This document shows, piece after piece, positions 2,538-16,313 of a stretch of DNA of 36,696 bases (within the stretch, counting starts at the first letter, position 1; each line of letters opens with the position of its first letter). This DNA is from a virus: IMG/VR virus record IMGVR_UViG_3300026512_000037, positions 1 to 36,696 of that record; one strand, 5' to 3'. The notes under the pieces were generated by a model. It was not told the origin of the DNA, ran no database searches, and saw nothing but the letters and a program-made list of their open reading frames with translations. The position numbers and the translations under genes were made by a program.

Positions 2538-3239
2538 ATGTCAAATAATGGACATTTTTACAAACATCCAAAACATGGGAAAAGGGTCCCATCTCCTACA
2601 GGCGTAATAGGGCAACTTGATAAAAGCGGAGCGTTGACATGGTGGGCGGCAGGCTGTGCATGTGATTATATAGCACAGCAATTGCCAGACAAAGAGACCT
2701 ATTCAAAGGAAGAGATATTTTCTATGCTGGAGCGAGCAAGGCGGGAGTTCAGAAATGTATCTCAACAGGCACTTGATATAGGATCCACTGTTCACAACTA
2801 CATTCGCTATTACCTTGAAACTGGTAAAGAGCCAGTTATAAGCGATGATCAGGTTCTTTCAGCGTTTATAGCCTTTCTGGAATGGAAGGATCAGCACAAG
2901 CTTGAAGTAATTAAAACAGAGCATACAGTTTATGATTCAGAGGGACTATACGCTGGCACTTTAGACCTGTTATGCCAGCTCGATGGGAAAATGTATGTGA
3001 TAGATTTTAAAACCACCAAAAAGCCACGAGGCAATAAGCCTTATGAGGAGTGGGCATATCAGCTGGCTGCATATTCTAAATGCGTAGAAAATGTAGAGGG
3101 TATGGGGATACTCAGGCTGGATAAAGAAACTGGGTATCCTAACTGGTATGACCTGACTGCCCAGAGAAAGCAGGCGGAAGAAATATTTATGTGCCTGCTC
3201 AAGCTCTGGTATCTGAGACATCCTAATTATCCAAAATAA
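2538..3239 (+). CDS. RecB/Cas4-like PD-(D/E)XK exonuclease
   Basis: A 233-residue nuclease paired with a single-strand annealing protein, the functional equivalent of lambda Exo/Red-beta or RecE/RecT. The visible motifs in order are H86 (IGSTVHNYI), E129 (KTEHTVY), D143 (YAGTLDLL), D156-F-K158 (YVIDFKTTK) and Q175 (AYQLAAYS). Together they match the PD-(D/E)XK RecB-type active site with its QxxxY element. It should resect double-stranded ends to give single strands for the annealase. Start ATG at 2538 follows GAAAGGAGGG. It lies 17 bases upstream of recT and is part of the rightward early operon. Confidence 0.85.
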   Translation: MSNNGHFYKHPKHGKRVPSPTGVIGQLDKSGALTWWAAGCACDYIAQQLPDKETYSKEEIFSMLERARREFRNVSQQALDIGSTVHNYIRYYLETGKEPVISDDQVLSAFIAFLEWKDQHKLEVIKTEHTVYDSEGLYAGTLDLLCQLDGKMYVIDFKTTKKPRGNKPYEEWAYQLAAYSKCVENVEGMGILRLDKETGYPNWYDLTAQRKQAEEIFMCLLKLWYLRHPNYPK

Positions 3240-3256: not shown

Positions 3257-4027
3257 ATGACAGAAGTTACATCTTTAAAACCACGAGAAAAGGATGTGGA
3301 ATTAAACATTGAGGATATTAAAAAATACATTGCACCAGAGGCAAATGATAAAGAGTTGTTTATGTTTGTAAATATTGCCAAATCCTATGGACTTAATCCC
3401 TTCAAAAGAGAAATCCATTTTGTCAAATATGGCAACAACCCAGGGCAGATAATAGTGGGGTATGAAACATACCTGAAACGGGCAGAAAGGACAGGGCTTC
3501 TTGATGGTTGGGAAGTAAAAATAGTGGATATAGGGAAACCAACAGAAAGAGCAGTAATTACTATCTATAGAAAAGACAGATCTCACCCCTTTGTATGGGA
3601 AGTTTATAGAAGAGAATTTGACAAAGGACAGGCATCTTGGAAAACTATGCCTCATTTTATGCTTAAAAAAGTAGCTATCGCTCAAGGCTTCAGACTTGCT
3701 TTTCCAGAAGACTTGGGTGGTATGCCTTACATAGCTGAGGAAATAACAGATATTACAAGTGAGAATTTAGTACAAAAAAACGACAATTCTATAACATCAG
3801 CTCAATTAAAAAAAATCCAGATACTATTTTCAAAGCTTAAAATTACAAATAGGGATATGAAGCTTACTATTGCAAAAGACATAATAGGCAGAGATATTAA
3901 TTCTTCTAAAGAACTGACGAAAGAAGAAGCCTCAACCGTGATAGAGGAATTAGAAAAATCATTGAAAGAAATGAAACATAGGGGGCAATCAAACGAAGAA
4001 AATAAAACAGAAGAAAAGGAGGAATAA
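3257..4027 (+). CDS. recT: RecT/Bet-family single-strand annealing protein
   Basis: A 256-residue protein of the Red-beta/RecT superfamily, closest in pattern to phage recombination protein Bet. It binds single-stranded DNA and anneals complementary strands during recombination and concatemer formation. Diagnostic segments are KYIAPEANDKELFMFVNIAK, YGLNPFKREIHFVKYG, a GYETYLKRAE block and WKTMPHFMLKKVAIAQ followed by FRLAFPEDLGGMPYIAEEI (about 127-165). The C-terminal 90 residues are charged and helical, as expected for the tail that contacts SSB or the exonuclease. ATG at 3257 follows AAAGGAGGG. The partner exonuclease is immediately upstream. The 5-nt periodic tract downstream of the operon is of interest because related annealases form regular filaments on DNA. 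Confidence 0.9.
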   Translation: MTEVTSLKPREKDVELNIEDIKKYIAPEANDKELFMFVNIAKSYGLNPFKREIHFVKYGNNPGQIIVGYETYLKRAERTGLLDGWEVKIVDIGKPTERAVITIYRKDRSHPFVWEVYRREFDKGQASWKTMPHFMLKKVAIAQGFRLAFPEDLGGMPYIAEEITDITSENLVQKNDNSITSAQLKKIQILFSKLKITNRDMKLTIAKDIIGRDINSSKELTKEEASTVIEELEKSLKEMKHRGQSNEENKTEEKEE

Positions 4028-4030
4028 AAA

Positions 4031-4243
4031 ATGATAAAAGCGAGAGATTTTAAAATAGAATTAACTATTGCGTCATATGGCGAGAAAGGTTCTGTTTCAT
4101 CTCTTGTAAAGTCTGCTTCTATGGAAGTAGAGGGTGATGCTATGATGAGTGCTGATAAAGCAAGGCAGATTATTAAGCAGTTATGTAAGTTGCTGGCTGA
4201 ATCGCTAAGCGATTCGGAGATAGAGGAAGCTATTAATCAGTAG
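4031..4243 (+). CDS. Small protein of unknown function
   Basis: A 70-residue protein, three bases after recT with a ribosome site (AGGAGGAAT) inside the end of that gene. The first half looks beta-rich (FKIELTIASYG, SASMEVEGD) and the second half helical and acidic (ADKARQIIKQLCKLLAESL, DSEIEEAI). I do not recognise a family. Position between the annealase and the RAMP-like gene suggests a role in the same recombination or nucleic-acid-handling group. Its last 45 bases contain a perfect 17-base palindrome. Confidence 0.7.
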   Translation: MIKARDFKIELTIASYGEKGSVSSLVKSASMEVEGDAMMSADKARQIIKQLCKLLAESLSDSEIEEAINQ

Positions 4244-4271
4244 AAAACCTTGCCCGCTCTTTTGAGCGGGC
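4199..4271 (+). other. Two consecutive perfect hairpins
   Basis: GAATCGCT-A-AGCGATTC (4199-4215) lies inside the end of the 70-residue gene. GCCCGCTC-TTTT-GAGCGGGC (4252-4271) lies between that gene and the RAMP-like gene. Neither is followed by a T run on the + strand, so they look like RNA-processing or attenuation structures rather than simple terminators. They would separate the exonuclease-recT part of the message from the RAMP-like gene and the periodic tract. Confidence 0.6.
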
Positions 4272-4292: not shown

Positions 4293-4952
4293 ATGGCAAA
4301 GATAAAAAGCTTGAATGAGGCAGTGGAATATCGGGCGTATAAGATAATTTTGGTAGAGAAGCTGTTAGGGACTATACCAAAGAACAAGGAGCTATTCACT
4401 AAATGGGTTCTGGATAAATACTATAATGGCGATGATGTGGATCCAGAAATACAAGAAGAATACGACATGAACAAAGAAATAGAAGAATCCCTTGCTCCTG
4501 AAGGCGAAGGGGAAACAGGGTTCTTTACTGATTCGGATGGGATTTACATTATGGATTACCATGTGCGGGGGTTTCTAAAGAATGCGGGCAATGTTTTGAA
4601 AGACATACTTGGAATCAGAAACTTGAGAAGCAAGATTGAAAACTATGTATTCGTTCTCCCTCGCCACATTTTTTTGAAAAAAAAACCAGATGGCAGGCTT
4701 CAGAGACCACTTAGGGGGCAGACTCCCAGAGGAGTAAGAGTTACATTAGTATCATCTGACTATGTTAATGAAGGCACAAGTTTTAACATTGTTATTGAAA
4801 AATTTAGGCATAGAGAAATCACTTGGAATGTAATAGAGTCGCTTCTTGATTATGGTTCAAGACAAGGACTATGCCAATGGCGGACTGGGGGATATGGTAG
4901 GTTTAAGTGGGAGAGGATTGCAGTGGAAGAAAGCGGAGTACCGATAGAGTAA
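4293..4952 (+). CDS. Phage RAMP/Cas7-like protein
   Basis: A 219-residue protein that I recognise as a recurrent phage hypothetical without an assigned function. Motifs suggest the RAMP (Cas7/Csm3-like) fold. A mid-protein segment (GIYIMDYHVRGFLKNAGNVL) resembles the RAMP loop before the first long helix. The C-terminal part has an RGVRVTLVSSDYVNEGTSF strand pair and ends in a glycine-rich loop GLCQWRTGGYGRFKW (about 193-207), like the G-x-G-GxG loop that contacts RNA in Cas7 proteins. No other CRISPR gene or array is present, so it would be a solo RAMP. ATG at 4293 follows GGGGGG. The gene is immediately followed by the 5-nt periodic tract. The fold call is motif-based and needs structure comparison. 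Confidence 0.5.
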   Translation: MAKIKSLNEAVEYRAYKIILVEKLLGTIPKNKELFTKWVLDKYYNGDDVDPEIQEEYDMNKEIEESLAPEGEGETGFFTDSDGIYIMDYHVRGFLKNAGNVLKDILGIRNLRSKIENYVFVLPRHIFLKKKPDGRLQRPLRGQTPRGVRVTLVSSDYVNEGTSFNIVIEKFRHREITWNVIESLLDYGSRQGLCQWRTGGYGRFKWERIAVEESGVPIE

Positions 4953-4954
4953 GA

Positions 4955-5341
4955 GTTAGGTATAGTGAAGTTAGAGTTTTGTTTAGCTAGGCGAGGGTTA
5001 AGTGAGGGGTGGTGATGTGGGGTAGAGTAAGGGAAAAATAAGGAATTGTGTGGCAAAGCAAAGACTTAGTGAGGAAATGTAGGGAGATGTTCCGCAAAGG
5101 CAAAGTAATGCATTGAATAGCATAGTTTCGTGTAATAAAGCAAAGGCGTTGGGTAGTGGGGTGTAGTGTAGCGATGTTCTGTAGAAGTGAAGTGATGCCA
5201 TGTCAAGTCCAGCATGGTGCTGTTGTGCAATGCTAAGGTGTCGAACAGTTCCGTTTAGCGGAGCCATGGATGTGTATAGGGCAGTGCTGTGCTGTGATGG
5301 TGTCGAATAGTTTGGTGGGGTTTAGCAAGGCATCGCAATAG
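4955..5341 (+). other. Non-coding tract with G at every fifth base
   Basis: This 387-nt stretch has no supportable gene. Starting at 4955 and stepping to 5341 in 64 steps of 5 and 11 steps of 6, 74 of 76 visited positions are G on the + strand; the exceptions are A at 5037 and A at 5135. The base after each phased G is usually T or C, while the others vary, so there is no fixed repeat unit. The six-base steps fall at 4970, 4996, 5042, 5063, 5099, 5145, 5181, 5237, 5268, 5299 and 5335; adjacent Gs make a few of these ambiguous by one unit. It follows the RAMP-like gene by two bases, should be transcribed as the 3-prime end of the recombination message, and ends five bases before a strong terminator. 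Confidence 0.85.
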
Positions 5342-5346
5342 AATCA

Positions 5347-5393
5347 AAAAAAATACTCAGGGGAGCTGGTTTTAGTCCTCTGAGTATTTTTTT
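5347..5393. terminator. Bidirectional terminator between convergent operons
   Basis: An 18-bp stem (5347-5364 with 5376-5393, one G-U pair) has an 11-base loop, with A7 on one side and T7 on the other, so it works for both strands. It ends the rightward recombination operon with its periodic tract, and the leftward late operon. The holin stop codon overlaps its right edge. Confidence 0.9.
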
Positions 5394-8498: not shown

Positions 8499-11400
8499 TT
8501 ACCTCCTTTCTAACGCTCTAAGGCGTTTTGGTTGCATTCTTTTCCATAATGTTTCGTTTGTAATAAATAGCCCTCTTGCAACATCAGGCGGAACTTTCTC
8601 TACCACTTTTTTATTGTATTCCATCATTTGCTCTAACAACCCTTTTGCTGTTTCTTCATCACCTCTGTTCATAGCTTTAGCCCATGCACTTACAAGCGTG
8701 TCTTTCTTTTCTTTCCACACTTCTCTTATTGCTCTGCTTGTTTCGGCTTTTCTGTAGGCTTCTGATAAAGTTATTGGCTGAAAACCAACTGCTTTTAACA
8801 GCCCTTCGCCTGTAGTCAGCTTTAAAGGTTTAAAGTCGCTGTCAACTACTCTTTTTCCATGCCTTGTTTCAATGCCTCTGGTGGTAAGCCTGTATGCCTG
8901 CAAGGGGTATCTCATGACATTTAAGAAAAGCGGGAAATTTTCTACTGCACGCCAGAAATCTCTTGTTTGTATATCCTGATAGGTTTTTGCAAGTCCTGAT
9001 CCTATATCATAAGGAACACCAACCAATTCTTTTAATGTTCGTGGCATTTCGATAGAAATGGACCCAGTTAAATCTATCCCTAAGAAGCTTGGTGCTCCAT
9101 AAAGGACTGCTTTATACCAGTCCCCAGCAATTTCTGCTATATCCTGAAATAAATCACTTCCAGTTACTTTTCTGTAAACCCAGTTTATAGTTGATGCAAA
9201 AGGAAGCCCTTTGATACCACCCAAAGCCAGTATAGCCATAAAAGATTTAGCAAGCCCCCATTTGCCTCTCCAGCCATAGTCAGAAGCAAGACTTTTATAT
9301 AGATGCAGGATGTTATGAGTAAAAGACCTAAAGGTATATGCTGATCTTGCTACCTTTGCTAATTTTCCGCCTCTTGCAAATGGGGGGAGATTGAATTTTC
9401 CATACCTAAAATGGGTTTCGTCGATGATTTTTGATGCAAACTTATAGGCATCTTCAAAGTTCATTCCTTTTTCTTTTCTTGCAATTCTAAATGCAGTGAG
9501 GAATGTGGTTTCTCTGTTAAATATTTCCGCTACACCAAACATCCATCTTAACGCCTTTGCAAATTCTCTTGGTAAGCTTCCATACTTCCCTGGCATCATA
9601 CCCATAACTTCTTCAGTAAGCTGGTCTGAGATAGTTCCATCAAGTCTTGCTCTTGCAAGCGCCCTAAGTTCTTCTTCAGTGAGCCTTTTTGTCATTGCGG
9701 TTTCTCGCCTGCTCATACCTTCTGCTGGTTTTGTATAAAGAGCTTTTATGAGGTCCATTCCGCTTCTCATCATTTCCGCTGTTAGCTTTGACCCCGCCCA
9801 GTTAGTTTCCACTGTAAGACGAGGAATAGTGGTTACGAAGTTCTGTGTAAGCTGAAGCGCTGCACTTTTAAGAACTCCACCAAGATATTTGAAAAAGAGG
9901 AATGCTCTGAATTTATCTACTGCTCTATCAAACTGAGTCTGGTTGGCAAAAGTGTCTTTCACATATTTTTCTGCATAAGCTCTGAGATTATGTTTTTGTC
10001 CCCAGTCTATTTTCCCCCATATTTCATTAAGTTTCTTTGCTGCAAGAAGTTTGCTTTTATAGCCAGCCCAACCATTTATGTATTCGATTACAGCATCCTG
10101 CCAGTTTTCAACCTCATATCCAGGGACTCCCTTTCTTTTTATTCCATGTTTCATAAATCCTCTTACTTTAAACACATCCGCTATTGCCTGCTCTATTGCT
10201 TGTTTAAACGTCTGTTTTAGTTTTTCCGAACCTTCTACTTTTTCCATTGCTACATTTATCAGCTCCTGAGTAACGAGAGGGGAGACTTCAAAGTAGGCTT
10301 CTTCTGGAAATTGTTCGGTATGTTTGCCTATTTTTATTATCTTATCGGCGCCGAATTGCTCTCTCAGAATTTTCTTAAGCTTAGCTCCTTTTGGAGAGTA
10401 TTTCCCGCCTGTAAGCGTTGCTATAAGGTCATCAAACATCGTGTGATAGAGAATTTCTTTTGTCTTTGGATCTTTAACGAATATGTAATAAGCTCCTTTT
10501 CTTGGGTGAGGCATATAACCTGTTACATTGCCAACTTCTCTTCTGTATTGCTCTATCTCGGTTTTAGGAACACCAAGCTCTTCCATAAGCATTGGTAGTT
10601 CTTCATTCCAGATGAAGTTAAGCACTTCTCTTGTTGCTTTGTAAGCTCTTCTTTCATTAGGGGTTAGTTTTGCGAGAGCCTTGTCAGATAGCTCTTTCCT
10701 CAATTCATCCCCTTTATAAAGAATTTTCCCTACTCTTTCCTTTTCTTTCTTGCTCAATGACTTCCAAGCATCAAAAAGCTCCTTCAGGTAAGTATTTCGT
10801 ATTGTATTAAAGTTACGCCATCTCTCATCCACTACATCAAAGACCTTTTTGAACTCAGGGCTTTCATTTCTAAGCCATGAAGGTATATCGCTATATAAGC
10901 GCAGTAAGCCTAAATCTTCTGGGTCTATATCTATTTTGGAATCTTTAGCAAATTTTAAAATCTCTTTTGCAGTATTTGCTACTGAGCCAGCGGTATAGTG
11001 GATTATATTTTCCTCTACAGGATTGGCTAAGCGAGCTTGGGTTATTTTTGCATCCAGCTCGCCTTTTGCTTGCAGAGACTCTCCATTTTCTATGACATCG
11101 TATACAGGGATAAAGCCTCTGGATGTTATAAGCTCGTAAAGAGAAGCTTGTTCTGGAGTTAGCTTTTTGGTGTTAAAGATAACTGCATTTGCGTTGGTGG
11201 CTTCTATAAGCTTTGCAAGGTTAACAAAGTTTTCCTGAGCGGATTTATTTGGGTCATATACATAAAAACCAATGTCACGATTCTTGGTGTTAAGAATTAG
11301 GAAGCCATCTTTATTTTGGTATCCTTTGATTGCTTTTAAAGCTCTTTCAGGGGTTTGAATAGAGGTAGCTTTCCAGAAAGATGATTCTCTTACAATAAAT

Positions 11401-14400
11401 CTTTCTTTTACTGGTATCTTAACTTTTCTTACTGCTGGTTTGATTTCCTGTGGTTCTGAAAATTTTACCTCATTAAAAGTAGTGTAATGCTTCCCGCTTA
11501 TTACAAGCCCTTCTGTATCAATACCACCTAAAACAAAAATGTCTTTCAGTTTTGTGTAAACTCTTACATCACTTGCACTTGGCTGATGACTTACAGCAGG
11601 GTGGTTGTGAATAAAATAAACTTTTTTTGCATTAGGTATAGAAAATATTCTTCCAGCAATTTCTGAAGGCTCCATTTCCGAAGACTTTTTAGTTCCTTTG
11701 GAATAACGGAGTATTTCTAATACACGCCCATCTTTATCAGCTATGACGAAATAAACTTCTTCTTGTGCCTTTTTTCTAAGGGGACTAAGTAGGGAGGCGG
11801 TATCGTCAGCGTTCCTGACCACATATCCCTGTGCTTTAATATATCCTGTGGTTCTAAGAACCACTCTTTGCTTTGTGGGTATCTGAGCCTTTTTTGCAGG
11901 CTCTGTGAATTGGAGAGTAAGCTGTTCTGGTTTGAATTTAAGGCTTTCCCTGACTTCTTCTGGTTTTGTAACTGCTTCATATTCTATTCCTTCTTCTTCG
12001 ACTCCTTCTCCTTTTCCTCTGCGTATTTTTCCGCTCTTTTTAGTAGTTCTTTCCAGCAATCGAGGTTGTCCATGTTCGCCACCAGCTCCCAGCTTTTCAT
12101 GTCTTTTAAGTCCTTCATAAACTAACTCCTCCGATGACAGTGGTTTATCGCCAAATAACTGCTGATTAGTAAACCTTTCAGCCTGTTGTTTGGTAGCTTC
12201 CGCGATATATTTTAGCATGTTAGCAAGCTTTTTACTGCTTTTTTTGTTTCTATCAATAGCTTTCATCAGCTCGCCCACATGCTCAGGCAGTTCTGTAAAC
12301 AACTGCTGTTGAGCAAGATGATGCTCTACTGTTATTCCTAAATCTTTGGTCTTTTTATACTCCCTAACAGCATCAACAATAGCTTTAACTACCTTTTCTG
12401 CTTGCCCTGTAGTATCAAGGGTTTTTGCCTTGATAAAATCTTTACTATTGGCTATAAGTGCATTGAGAATGTTTTTTATTTCTGGGTTTGCTTCTTCAGC
12501 TTGCAAGGAGGCAAGATAATCATCCCCATAAGCTTTGTAAAACAAAGCGAAAGTAATTCTATCAGCAAGTTGCTTTGTGTAGTCTCCTTTGCTTGTGTAA
12601 TACTGCGAGGCTTCCTCTTTTGGTAGTTTAGCCAGAAAAGTCTTTACAAAGTCCCTGTTCTGCCTTGCGAAAATATTTCCATTTTCAGGTATATCAAGCA
12701 AATCTATATCTGCATCAGTAAGTCTATCTGCATCTGCTTTTGCTTGCTCTAAAGGACTCATTCTTGCGGTAGTAGCTTCATTTGCCTTTTTGACAAACTC
12801 TTTTCTATCAACATCTGTAATTCTTTCTCTAACCAATACAGGTTTTTCTATTTTGGCTATTTCTTTAGGGTTAAGCCCAAAGCGCTTAGCATTTTCAATA
12901 AGCCATTGTTTATAGTGATTCGCTTTGCCTCTATCATAAGCAAGCCTAATTGCAGCAACTCTACCATTTCCAGATTCCACTATAAAGTCTTTCCCTACAA
13001 TAGGCGCTCCATCGCTGACATTTGGGTTTTCTCCGAGCTTTTCAGGAATAAGGTTATTTGCAATGGTTACTATTTGCTCTATGGAAGCTTTACGCTCTCT
13101 CATTCTTGGCTGGAGTTCTTTTGGGTATTCTGTGTTAGGTGTGCCATCATATTGATGGCTGGAGATGAGGTCATCAGCATCGACTACTTTGTAAGCAAAA
13201 TCTATTTTTTTGCCATCTGGAAGGTAAGCAGAAGCGGTGTTGCCTTTTATTGTAGTAATTTTAGTTTTTTCAGGTTCAATTATTTTTTTTAAGTTCTTTA
13301 TTAAATCGTCGTATGTTTTGCTATCAATAGGCTTACCAACATCAGGATACACCCCAAAAGAAATGTCATAAAGATAGCCATTTTTATCATAAGAAGCTGT
13401 AAGATTGTAAGTTTTATCTCCTTTGCCGATTGTAAACCCTATCGACCCTGAACCATCTTTATGTTTGTTGTGATAACGCTTTGTTGCAAAATCAGCATTG
13501 AGGGCTTTTTTAATTTTGCTCCCTTTTAATTCAGAATAGTGAATTTGTGTGCGTTTTTGTGTTGGTGCTATACCCGATGTTAATTTGCTGAGAATATTGT
13601 CTATTTTTGCTTCTGCTCTCTTTAGCTGTTTGTTAGCTTTTTCTTCGATGGCTTCAGCTCGTTTTATATTCCCTTTATATTTTGCTTTGCCTACAACGCT
13701 AATTGGCGGTGCAATAGAGCGTGCTTTTGCTTTAGCTAAAAAGAAATCATGCAGAACTTTTCTGTATTGTTCTAAAGCCCGTTTTAAATCAGGCGGAATT
13801 TCCTGTAAGCCATATTCTTTTAATTTGTTTTTTACAGCGTTTTCTTTCTTTTGAATGATGTTTTTAAATTCTTTGTTAATATCTACCGAAAAATGACTAA
13901 ATTCGTTAAAAAAATCCACTTCATCTTTAGTAAATGGCTCGTCAGTTAGCCATATTTTTTCTTTTTTACTTTCAGGTTGAGTTTTGTGTTTTTCTGCCAA
14001 ATCAGGATAATCTTTCAACACTTCTGGAGGAACAGGCTTGTTTTCTTCAAGAGCTTGTTTTACAAAATACCTATGAGGATTTCTCCAGTATTCCTTAGGA
14101 ACTATAGCAATTATTTCTACAGGTTTTTTGATGTTATAAGTATGTGCGCCAGACTTTTTAATCTTATCAGGGTCATATCTTATAGCATACATAACCCCTT
14201 TTTCTGCATAAGGCATATTTATAAACGCTCGCATCGGAGAATCTGTTGCAAATCCTTTTGTTATCTTCCCCTTAATTTCAGCTTCAGATAGATGGTATAA
14301 GACATGAGGTTTTTCTCCGAGCATGTTATCAGATTCAAACTCATCTTTTGTCATTTGCCAGGGCTGTTTAATAGCAACTTCTTTTTTACCCTTTTGTTCA

Positions 14401-16313
14401 GATTTTATTTCTTTTTCTGCTTTGCCGAATATATTTTCTGGAGTAAGAAATTGACGAAATACCTTTGCAACATCTGGGTTAACTTTTGCGGGGTCGGTTA
14501 AATATTGCCCTAAGTCTATTGCAATAGCTTCGTGATGAAATTTATTTTTAACTATCCAATCTGGGTCAGCACCTTGTTTTTCCCATTCTGTCTTTTTAGC
14601 ATTTACATAGGCATTGTATAGCTGTTTTCTTTTGTTTTCTGGTAAGCTACTTTCTATTATAACATGAGCAATTTCATGGTTAGCAATATCGGGGTTATCC
14701 ATAAACTCCTTTTTAGAAAAGACTATTTGTTTATTAGGCCAATCAACCTCTGCTTCTGCCGAATGCCCTTCTTTCGTTCGAGTTTTACCAACAACCATTT
14801 TCCATCCATCAGGCAACAAATCAAACCTGATTTTGGGTTTTTTATGTTTTTCTGTTAAATCAGGGTAATCTTTCAGCGCTTCTGCAGCAAGCTCTTTTTT
14901 GATTACCTTTACTTTTCCATCCCGTAAAATACTCACTTCTTCAGGGCTTAATCCCTCATCAATCAACTTACGCCCTTCTTCAGGTAACAATCTATCAATC
15001 TGGCTTTCAGTAAAGCCTCTGTCTCGTAAAATTTGCTTTTCTTCTTCTGTTAAAGTTTCTAATTCAGGCTTTGCTTCTTTTTTTGCTTTTTCAACTTCAA
15101 GCTTTTGTTCAGTCTCCATTTCTTTTTCAACTTCATCAAATATATCTTGAGTGGCTGGTTTTTTTGGAGTTTCAGAAGTTATGGGCTCTGGTTTAATTTC
15201 TGGCTTTTCTTCTGGTTTTTGCATTTCAGGGAACAACTTTTTACCCTGCCTGAGCAACCCAGCTTCTTCATACAACTGCCTAAGCAGTTCTACAGAGCTT
15301 TCGGGTGCTGGCGCAGATGGTTTTAAAGGCAACTGAGTCTGAGCTGGCGTAGAAGCAAGAACTTTGTTGCTTTCATCAACAAGCTGTTCAAGGCTCTTTT
15401 TTGTTTGTTCGCTTATAGCTGGGTCTTTAAAAAGCTCCTCTATCTCTTTTTCTGGGTCTTCAGTTTTTTGGAGTTTCTTCTCGTATTTCTCGATGGCTTT
15501 TCTTTCTACAGCATCTTTTATGTTTTGTTTAAGAATCGGCAGTGAACTAAAAAGTAAGAAGTATCCTGTATTTGTCCCTAAGCCACTTATCAGCTCTTCA
15601 GGAGTGGGTAGTCTCCCTTGTTTTGTAGCCTGATAAGTTGGCTCAGCTATTCCCACTGCAAGCCATTTAGGGAGGTCTTTTAATCTCCCAGCCTGTAATT
15701 TGCTGTAGATAAGCCCAAATCCTGTATTCTCAATTGCCTGCTGTATGGCTTTGAGAGGCTTTCCTTCTTCAATTCCACCTGCAAAGCCTCTTATCCCCAT
15801 ACCAATTACAAAATCTGGTATTTTTGCAAGTATCTTTGCCGCTTTTTCAATTATTCTTGGAACAAGCGTGGCTTTTGTTGCCCCACCTGCCATAATATCA
15901 GCAGGAAGGGTAGGAATCATAGTCCCCATGCCTTCTATAAAAGAAAGCAGTCCTTCATCTAACTTTCCTTCTCCACGAGCGCCTTTTCTCAATTTTTCTG
16001 CCCATCTTAAAGCAGGGGTAACTGTGTATTCTTTGTATTTTTTATGCATTTCAGGCATTAAAAGAGGCCAGAAAGGTGGTAAATAAGGTAGAATTTTGTT
16101 TATTTCAGCGAGTCCTTCCAAAGCTCCAGCGCCAAGTCTTTTTCCTATGAGCTTGGGAACTTCTATTGCTGTTTTACCTAATGCATACAAATTAGGATGC
16201 CTGGCTTCAAATGGAGGCTCTTTTGGTGTATATTGTTCGGCTACTTCATCAAATATATCGCCTTTGTATTGCTTTTTATACTCCTCAGCTACCTCATCAA
16301 AAATATCTCCCAT
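8499..16313 (-). CDS. Giant polyvalent virion protein (protease, ParB-like, JAB, LPD38)
   Basis: A 2604-residue protein taking 21% of the genome. It matches the polyvalent proteins described in phages: multidomain polypeptides packed in the virion and injected with DNA. In order: two DIFDEVAE motifs (3-10, 19-26) and a third DIFDEVEK (about 390); a hydrophobic helical region (50-250); a metallopeptidase-like motif HEIAH (about 546) in a region with a second HHEA (about 592); a DdrB/ParB-like domain (about 1040-1200, VVDADDLISSHQYDG then VESGNGRVAAIRL); a RadC/JAB-type MPN domain (about 1470-1600, IHNHP...PSASD); and an LPD38/PLxRFG-like C-terminal region (about 2110-2330, HFRYGKFNLPPFARGG). 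ATG at 16313 overlaps the previous stop as TAATG. It may neutralise host defences and help ejection; domain calls vary in strength. Confidence 0.8.
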   Translation of the reverse strand: MGDIFDEVAEEYKKQYKGDIFDEVAEQYTPKEPPFEARHPNLYALGKTAIEVPKLIGKRLGAGALEGLAEINKILPYLPPFWPLLMPEMHKKYKEYTVTPALRWAEKLRKGARGEGKLDEGLLSFIEGMGTMIPTLPADIMAGGATKATLVPRIIEKAAKILAKIPDFVIGMGIRGFAGGIEEGKPLKAIQQAIENTGFGLIYSKLQAGRLKDLPKWLAVGIAEPTYQATKQGRLPTPEELISGLGTNTGYFLLFSSLPILKQNIKDAVERKAIEKYEKKLQKTEDPEKEIEELFKDPAISEQTKKSLEQLVDESNKVLASTPAQTQLPLKPSAPAPESSVELLRQLYEEAGLLRQGKKLFPEMQKPEEKPEIKPEPITSETPKKPATQDIFDEVEKEMETEQKLEVEKAKKEAKPELETLTEEEKQILRDRGFTESQIDRLLPEEGRKLIDEGLSPEEVSILRDGKVKVIKKELAAEALKDYPDLTEKHKKPKIRFDLLPDGWKMVVGKTRTKEGHSAEAEVDWPNKQIVFSKKEFMDNPDIANHEIAHVIIESSLPENKRKQLYNAYVNAKKTEWEKQGADPDWIVKNKFHHEAIAIDLGQYLTDPAKVNPDVAKVFRQFLTPENIFGKAEKEIKSEQKGKKEVAIKQPWQMTKDEFESDNMLGEKPHVLYHLSEAEIKGKITKGFATDSPMRAFINMPYAEKGVMYAIRYDPDKIKKSGAHTYNIKKPVEIIAIVPKEYWRNPHRYFVKQALEENKPVPPEVLKDYPDLAEKHKTQPESKKEKIWLTDEPFTKDEVDFFNEFSHFSVDINKEFKNIIQKKENAVKNKLKEYGLQEIPPDLKRALEQYRKVLHDFFLAKAKARSIAPPISVVGKAKYKGNIKRAEAIEEKANKQLKRAEAKIDNILSKLTSGIAPTQKRTQIHYSELKGSKIKKALNADFATKRYHNKHKDGSGSIGFTIGKGDKTYNLTASYDKNGYLYDISFGVYPDVGKPIDSKTYDDLIKNLKKIIEPEKTKITTIKGNTASAYLPDGKKIDFAYKVVDADDLISSHQYDGTPNTEYPKELQPRMRERKASIEQIVTIANNLIPEKLGENPNVSDGAPIVGKDFIVESGNGRVAAIRLAYDRGKANHYKQWLIENAKRFGLNPKEIAKIEKPVLVRERITDVDRKEFVKKANEATTARMSPLEQAKADADRLTDADIDLLDIPENGNIFARQNRDFVKTFLAKLPKEEASQYYTSKGDYTKQLADRITFALFYKAYGDDYLASLQAEEANPEIKNILNALIANSKDFIKAKTLDTTGQAEKVVKAIVDAVREYKKTKDLGITVEHHLAQQQLFTELPEHVGELMKAIDRNKKSSKKLANMLKYIAEATKQQAERFTNQQLFGDKPLSSEELVYEGLKRHEKLGAGGEHGQPRLLERTTKKSGKIRRGKGEGVEEEGIEYEAVTKPEEVRESLKFKPEQLTLQFTEPAKKAQIPTKQRVVLRTTGYIKAQGYVVRNADDTASLLSPLRKKAQEEVYFVIADKDGRVLEILRYSKGTKKSSEMEPSEIAGRIFSIPNAKKVYFIHNHPAVSHQPSASDVRVYTKLKDIFVLGGIDTEGLVISGKHYTTFNEVKFSEPQEIKPAVRKVKIPVKERFIVRESSFWKATSIQTPERALKAIKGYQNKDGFLILNTKNRDIGFYVYDPNKSAQENFVNLAKLIEATNANAVIFNTKKLTPEQASLYELITSRGFIPVYDVIENGESLQAKGELDAKITQARLANPVEENIIHYTAGSVANTAKEILKFAKDSKIDIDPEDLGLLRLYSDIPSWLRNESPEFKKVFDVVDERWRNFNTIRNTYLKELFDAWKSLSKKEKERVGKILYKGDELRKELSDKALAKLTPNERRAYKATREVLNFIWNEELPMLMEELGVPKTEIEQYRREVGNVTGYMPHPRKGAYYIFVKDPKTKEILYHTMFDDLIATLTGGKYSPKGAKLKKILREQFGADKIIKIGKHTEQFPEEAYFEVSPLVTQELINVAMEKVEGSEKLKQTFKQAIEQAIADVFKVRGFMKHGIKRKGVPGYEVENWQDAVIEYINGWAGYKSKLLAAKKLNEIWGKIDWGQKHNLRAYAEKYVKDTFANQTQFDRAVDKFRAFLFFKYLGGVLKSAALQLTQNFVTTIPRLTVETNWAGSKLTAEMMRSGMDLIKALYTKPAEGMSRRETAMTKRLTEEELRALARARLDGTISDQLTEEVMGMMPGKYGSLPREFAKALRWMFGVAEIFNRETTFLTAFRIARKEKGMNFEDAYKFASKIIDETHFRYGKFNLPPFARGGKLAKVARSAYTFRSFTHNILHLYKSLASDYGWRGKWGLAKSFMAILALGGIKGLPFASTINWVYRKVTGSDLFQDIAEIAGDWYKAVLYGAPSFLGIDLTGSISIEMPRTLKELVGVPYDIGSGLAKTYQDIQTRDFWRAVENFPLFLNVMRYPLQAYRLTTRGIETRHGKRVVDSDFKPLKLTTGEGLLKAVGFQPITLSEAYRKAETSRAIREVWKEKKDTLVSAWAKAMNRGDEETAKGLLEQMMEYNKKVVEKVPPDVARGLFITNETLWKRMQPKRLRALERR

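Follow-up and report, generated by a model that had tools for sequence, protein, structure and literature searches.

The window analysed here, the whole stretch of 36,696 nucleotides which makes up positions 1 to 36,696 of the IMG/VR virus record IMGVR_UViG_3300026512_000037, carries directly behind a small RAMP-like gene a tract in which a G recurs at about every fifth base, and the question is what such a phased tract does. An earlier sequence-only reading had offered two answers: that the phase positions the phage annealase RecT on DNA, or that the tract is an RNA bound periodically by the RAMP-like protein. A third frame is available in the literature. VIPR (Viral Interference Programmable Repeat) systems, as set out in the main text of a 2026 preprint, consist of phage-borne RAMP proteins and vrRNAs of 9-16 pentamers, each of them a conserved GGY followed by two variable bases (NN), and DNA is recognized through the NN positions with one target base skipped (PMC13142463); a full-text literature search returned this as the sole report of VIPR. 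Judged by sequence, predicted structure and analogy together, the tract is very probably the array of guide RNA (vrRNA) belonging to a VIPR system carried by the phage, and we refer to the preceding gene as vipr.

The phased tract and its operon

The features of the locus, all on the + strand, are as follows.

2330-2358, +: promoter-like site TTGACA-17-TACTAT, a consensus match only
2538-3239, +: exonuclease, PD-(D/E)XK, RecB/Cas4-like; same operon, context and not a conserved partner
3257-4027, +: RecT annealase; same operon, context and not a conserved partner
4031-4243, +: 70-aa protein between recT and vipr, without Pfam or PHROG match
4293-4952, +: vipr; RAMP-family product of 219 aa, glycine-rich loop close to the C-terminus (QWRTGGYGRFKWE)
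4955-5341, +: G-phased pentamer array, putative vrRNA array; about 75 units G-Y-n-n-n, 387 nt
4970-5299, +: ten 6-nt steps within the array, dividing it into blocks of 5n+1 nt
5247-5269, +: stretch most conserved in the alignment with the nearest relative, with a possible hairpin GUUCCG-UUUAG-CGGAGC at 5250-5266
5347-5393, +: intrinsic terminator hairpin, an inverted repeat (shuffle fold z -5.8), which ends the array

When the tract was followed from 4955 to its end in steps of 5 nt, with at most 11 steps of 6 nt, 74 of the 76 visited bases were G, exactly the count that had been claimed. Shuffled sequence does not reach such a run, as 300 dinucleotide shuffles given equal step freedom produced a mean G share of 62% and a maximum of 72%. 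Scored as a chain the tract attained 59, where the best of 500 shuffles reached 19, and it was the top-scoring G chain of the whole window, on the + strand only, with no other chain close. The spectrum of G positions peaked at 5.14 nt and at half that period, which bears out the period of about 5 nt proposed from the letters, and the pyrimidine reported after the G was found as T or C at +1 in 63 of 75 units; the base +4, just before the next G, was G in 17 of 75. Tandem Repeats Finder detected nothing in the tract, in agreement with the description of a phase signal without a conserved repeat unit. Rfam gave no match anywhere in the window, and the predicted RNA structure of the tract was at shuffle level (z -0.04). 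Both borders lay where they had been placed, the start directly 3' of a stop codon, 2 nt past vipr (the G chain extends back to 4933), and the end just before the strong terminator hairpin. An 89-aa antisense ORF (4998-5267) overlaps the tract; a coding reading was set aside because the 5-nt phase does not fit codons.

The array would be transcribed as the 3' end of an exo-recT-vipr operon and stop at the terminator. The promoter-like site could, judging from its sequence, drive this operon, and matches of its kind were not above the regional shuffle rate. The terminator is possibly bidirectional, because A and T tracts flank it; it was not listed by the terminator scan (loop limit 8) because its loop is larger. 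A perfect GC-rich hairpin (GCCCGCTCTTTTGAGCGGGC) at 4252-4271, in the gap that separates the 70-aa gene from the start codon of vipr, was listed as terminator-like on the - strand and could shape the expression of vipr and the array. Elsewhere in the window, seven perfect copies of the hexamer TCCTGT occur at 1327-1368 within a DnaD-like helicase-loader gene, and 8499-16313 encodes a protein of 2604 aa that is in part similar to DarB-like antirestriction proteins.

The vipr protein alone gave no Pfam or PHROG match. The family profile matched type VII Cas7 (E 1.8e-5) and Csm4 (E 9e-4) in the glycine-rich loop (G-loop), which is conserved across the 100 aligned relatives. The AlphaFold2 model, built with 100 relatives in the alignment, had a mean pLDDT of 88; Foldseek matched it to type VII Cas7 with an E value of 7e-9 over most of the protein length, and VIA gave a Z of 13.4 over 165 residues to type VII Cas7 and of 13.0 to Csm subunits. 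By sequence and predicted fold, then, the gene before the tract encodes a minimal single-gene RAMP protein of the Cas7/Csm3 kind.

Co-occurrence of the tract with vipr

Homologues of vipr number more than 240 in IMG/VR with a further 59 in genome contigs, and scans of viral and genomic contigs yielded a set of 194 non-redundant loci. A G-phased tract lay within 1.5 kb of vipr in 188 of these, at a median distance of 21 nt (downstream only in 120, upstream only in 52 and on both sides in 16), and it was stronger on the strand of vipr itself in 181 of the 188. Control windows more than 4 kb away contained a tract in 0 of 331 cases (Fisher p 4e-137, a nominal value because the loci are related to each other). 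The tract was as clear in relatives from human gut phages, at 27-35% protein identity, as in the nearest ones. Among phages related through the portal protein, it was present in all four retrieved that carry vipr (G001, G012, G013 and G014) and in none of the retrieved ones that do not (G002-G005, G007, G008, G010 and G011), three of the latter being contigs of 33-35 kb; the phasing was thus missing from homologous phages only where vipr was also missing, which answers the check that had been proposed. The suspicion that the tract might be a chance or decaying feature does not hold, the phase pattern being family-wide. Homologues without a detectable tract nearby included L142, L171, L105, L102 and L202, one being in a Lokiarchaeota bin, and some tractless contigs end close to the gene. 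On another vipr-bearing phage contig (L046, 338-392) a Type-P5 twister ribozyme (Rfam RF02684) was noticed outside the array.

No conserved partner gene accompanied vipr, the largest neighbour family covering 14 of the sampled loci, and the lack of any recurring partner family suggests that the system is a single gene plus its array. Homologues of the exonuclease and of the 70-aa protein were found, among the portal relatives, in G001 only. The same holds in essence for RecT. That the 5-nt phase positions the annealase on DNA was suggested by recT lying two genes upstream of the tract, but RecT neighbours vipr in just 7 of the sampled loci, most vipr-positive relatives are without this RecT and yet carry the tract, and four RecT/Bet loci without vipr showed no tract on the strand of the gene (one of them, L009, had a weak chain on the other strand, scoring 16.3 against a cut-off of 20). 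We consider an annealase register hardly credible. Equally implausible is a DNA-level element, such as an origin, a packaging or a recombination tract, standing beside vipr by chance: the tract is indeed G-rich and strand-biased, but it keeps to the strand of vipr in 181 of the 188 loci and is found both upstream and downstream of the gene, and near-complete relatives without vipr lack it. Since the tract co-occurs with vipr and not with recT, it belongs to the RAMP gene; the first of the two earlier proposals fails, and the second, an RNA bound periodically by the RAMP-like protein, was right in kind, given the Cas7/Csm3 fold predicted for that protein and the 188 of 194 co-occurrences.

Units and blocks of the arrays

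Parsing of 233 tracts, about 117 kb in all, gave 3093 blocks. The G carried 1.3-1.9 bits and, in mid-block units, 1.3-1.6 bits; in these units +1 was mostly C and rarely G, +2 leaned to purine, and +3 and +4 were near uniform (0.00-0.07 bits). The unit of the family is G-H-R-NN, the array of the window being richer in T at +1 than the family, and a strict GGY is not the consensus of these arrays. For the "GGCAW tracts" that the sequence-only reading mentions in some phage genomes, the literature gave nothing under that name, but GCANN units are common in these arrays. The arrays are continuous and run from dozens to more than 100 units, up to more than 1 kb.

The 6-nt steps are not random slips, as they recur regularly across the 3093 blocks. 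Independent placement would put the largest count at adjacent steps, and spacings of 5, 6 and 7 units were counted 792, 870 and 457 times against 116 for adjacent steps, so that one extra base per 5-7 units gives blocks of 26, 31 or 36 nt. In the window the hexamers start at 4970, 4991, 5027, 5063, 5094, 5140, 5181, 5232, 5263 and 5294. Across the family the hexamer before a boundary follows the pattern G-C-R-A-N-G, and G-M-A comes after it. We have not seen such a block structure described in the main text of the VIPR preprint; its supplementary figures S17/S18 may bear on it.

Close relatives were compared in order to see which positions change. In the nearest one, L014, whose vipr is 81% identical to that of the window as DNA, the array had changed at 0 of 48 G positions and at 33 of 181 others (p 3e-4), and in 12 close array pairs G had changed in 16 of 687 cases (2.3%) against 221 of 2688 (about 8%) elsewhere; this conservation is partly built in, because the chain finder prefers G and defines the phase by it. 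Eight of the ten changes at +1 between the window and L014 are T/C swaps. Only pairs at least 85% identical entered the array comparison, and low-identity pairs were discarded as chance alignments of similar composition. In the candidate hairpin at 5250-5266, read from the sequence, the one stem base changed in L014 keeps a G-U pair; no discrete invariant 3' tail of the SUSP1 kind was evident. Small indels between close relatives' arrays were mainly of 5 nt; lengths of 21 and 31 nt (5n+1) occurred as well, and the largest indels followed no clear rule. Between the arrays of G013 and G014 (L273 1414-1855 and L275 8891-9369) there is a single insertion of 31 nt, as long as a block of six units. 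With small indels mostly of whole units and one of a whole 31-nt length, the gain and loss of guides appears to go by modules.

These observations allow a stronger statement, which we put forward tentatively and hold to be rather unlikely as it stands: that in place of vrRNAs of about 100 nt the array has two levels. Degenerate separators (GCRANG|GMA), spaced 26, 31 or 36 nt apart, would mark off modules of 5-7 units which come and go as blocks, and each module would serve either as a short guide or as part of a long composite one. If this were true, the array would be repeat-spacer-like without CRISPR repeats and a possible intermediate between VIPR and CRISPR. Should each block be a module, the way in which repeat-spacer arrays arose could be tested.

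The guide reading and known systems

Returning to the reading as a vrRNA array, the RNA would be coated by a polymer of Vipr, with a subunit at every 5 nt that holds the invariant G together with the weakly conserved H and R and leaves the two variable bases exposed. By analogy with the type II system, which has been tested by experiment (PMC13142463), the exposed dinucleotides would together recognize a DNA target in which one base per unit is skipped, and this binding would block transcription, most likely that of competing phages or prophages. The extra bases every 5-7 units would divide the array into blocks.

If the array is a guide of this kind, matching targets should be sought under a gapped code. 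Searches covered about 2.2 Mb of contigs that bear VIPR and 0.6 Mb from related phages. Skips of 0-3 and several registers were used, block boundaries being allowed for in some searches and ignored in others, and nothing rose above the unit-reversed controls. Two scans of all viral contigs with a 9-unit guide, the longest uninterrupted stretch of the window array, returned 0 and 1 match, one being about the rough chance expectation. Several candidates were rejected. An excess at register +1/+2 with skip 1 proved an artefact of low complexity, GC-rich genes having a C at every third base, and vanished under unit-shuffled and unit-reversed controls; a 12-unit scan gave one match of 22/24, a level also reached by the reversed control in the register next to it; and at shift +2 with skip 2 a single chance match was repeated in related phages. 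The longest match under the one-skip rule, from units 117-133 of the L225 array to L234:11437 (16 units, about 28/32, with third codon positions as the skipped bases), is isolated and not significant once every trial is counted. The natural targets are probably absent from the searched sets.

The empty searches are what would also be seen if the RNA partner of the RAMP protein were no guide but a decoy, an autoregulatory leader or a scaffold for assembly, with no targeting information in its variable bases, and the same could be said of arrays which are continuous and long, up to more than 1 kb, where the SUSP1 vrRNAs have about 100 nt. Such an RNA does not explain why the G is fixed and variation at +3 and +4 is near its maximum, and in the published relatives RNAs of this layout serve as guides (PMC13142463). 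We regard a role without targeting information as improbable, and a guide array as the reading to be preferred.

The comparison with VIPR itself rests on the main text of the preprint, according to which a type II vrRNA is about 100 nt long with an invariant structured 3' tail, phage SUSP1 carries four, and the accessory vap gene is typical of VIPR and not universal (PMC13142463). As a positive control, the same chain finder was applied to SUSP1 (KT454805) in the region flanking a 195-aa RAMP-like gene, and found one tract upstream and three downstream of it, in number and placing as published (PMC13142463); the SUSP1 vipr gene was identified in this analysis from these flanking tracts. Both systems have a small phage-borne RAMP protein with a G-loop, flanked by pentamer tracts in which conserved bases alternate with variable dinucleotides, and one finder detects both. 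The hhalign comparison of the vipr family with the published SUSP1 Vipr gave an E value of 1.5e-5 and a probability of 80%, a modest relation at the sequence-profile level which rests largely on the C-terminal G-loop region. On the other hand, the unit is G-H-R-NN and not the GGY-NN of SUSP1, the family has one continuous array in place of separate vrRNAs of about 100 nt with a structured tail, and, unlike type II, it has regular 6-nt steps and showed no conserved accessory gene among the sampled loci. Listonella phage phiHSIC has a SUSP1-like Vipr and yet carries GCA-NN tracts, not GGY-NN (L155 3136-3190 and 3340-3394), which indicates that the unit consensus varies even near type II.

Seven VIPR types and six accessory genes are reported in the main text, with related consensus motifs and some staggered overlapping arrays (PMC13142463). 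Compared on that text, other VIPR types with staggered arrays and a related consensus could be the family of the window. Seven types with six accessory genes suggest one type without any, and the family may be that type. With about 190 further loci, the window makes up a large collection of guide arrays from one family, VIPR-like and with a single gene, and adds a unit consensus distinct from GGY/NN together with a regular block structure that is absent from the main text of the preprint.

Relative to class 1 CRISPR-Cas, the Vipr protein resembles the backbone subunits Cas7 and Csm3 in its predicted fold (VIA Z up to 13.4) and in the sequence of its G-loop; unlike those systems, it is a single small protein with no other cas gene noted among the annotated neighbours, and no near-identical direct repeats with spacers were found in the tract. 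Among the traits which define VIPR, those found here are pentamers with a hypervariable dinucleotide, in the related consensus G-H-R-NN, a RAMP-fold protein with an RRM core and a glycine-rich loop, a modest sequence relation to the SUSP1 Vipr, and occurrence in phages, the window being a virus record with homologues in IMG/VR. Taken together, the system of the window is most likely a member of VIPR, or at least works like one.
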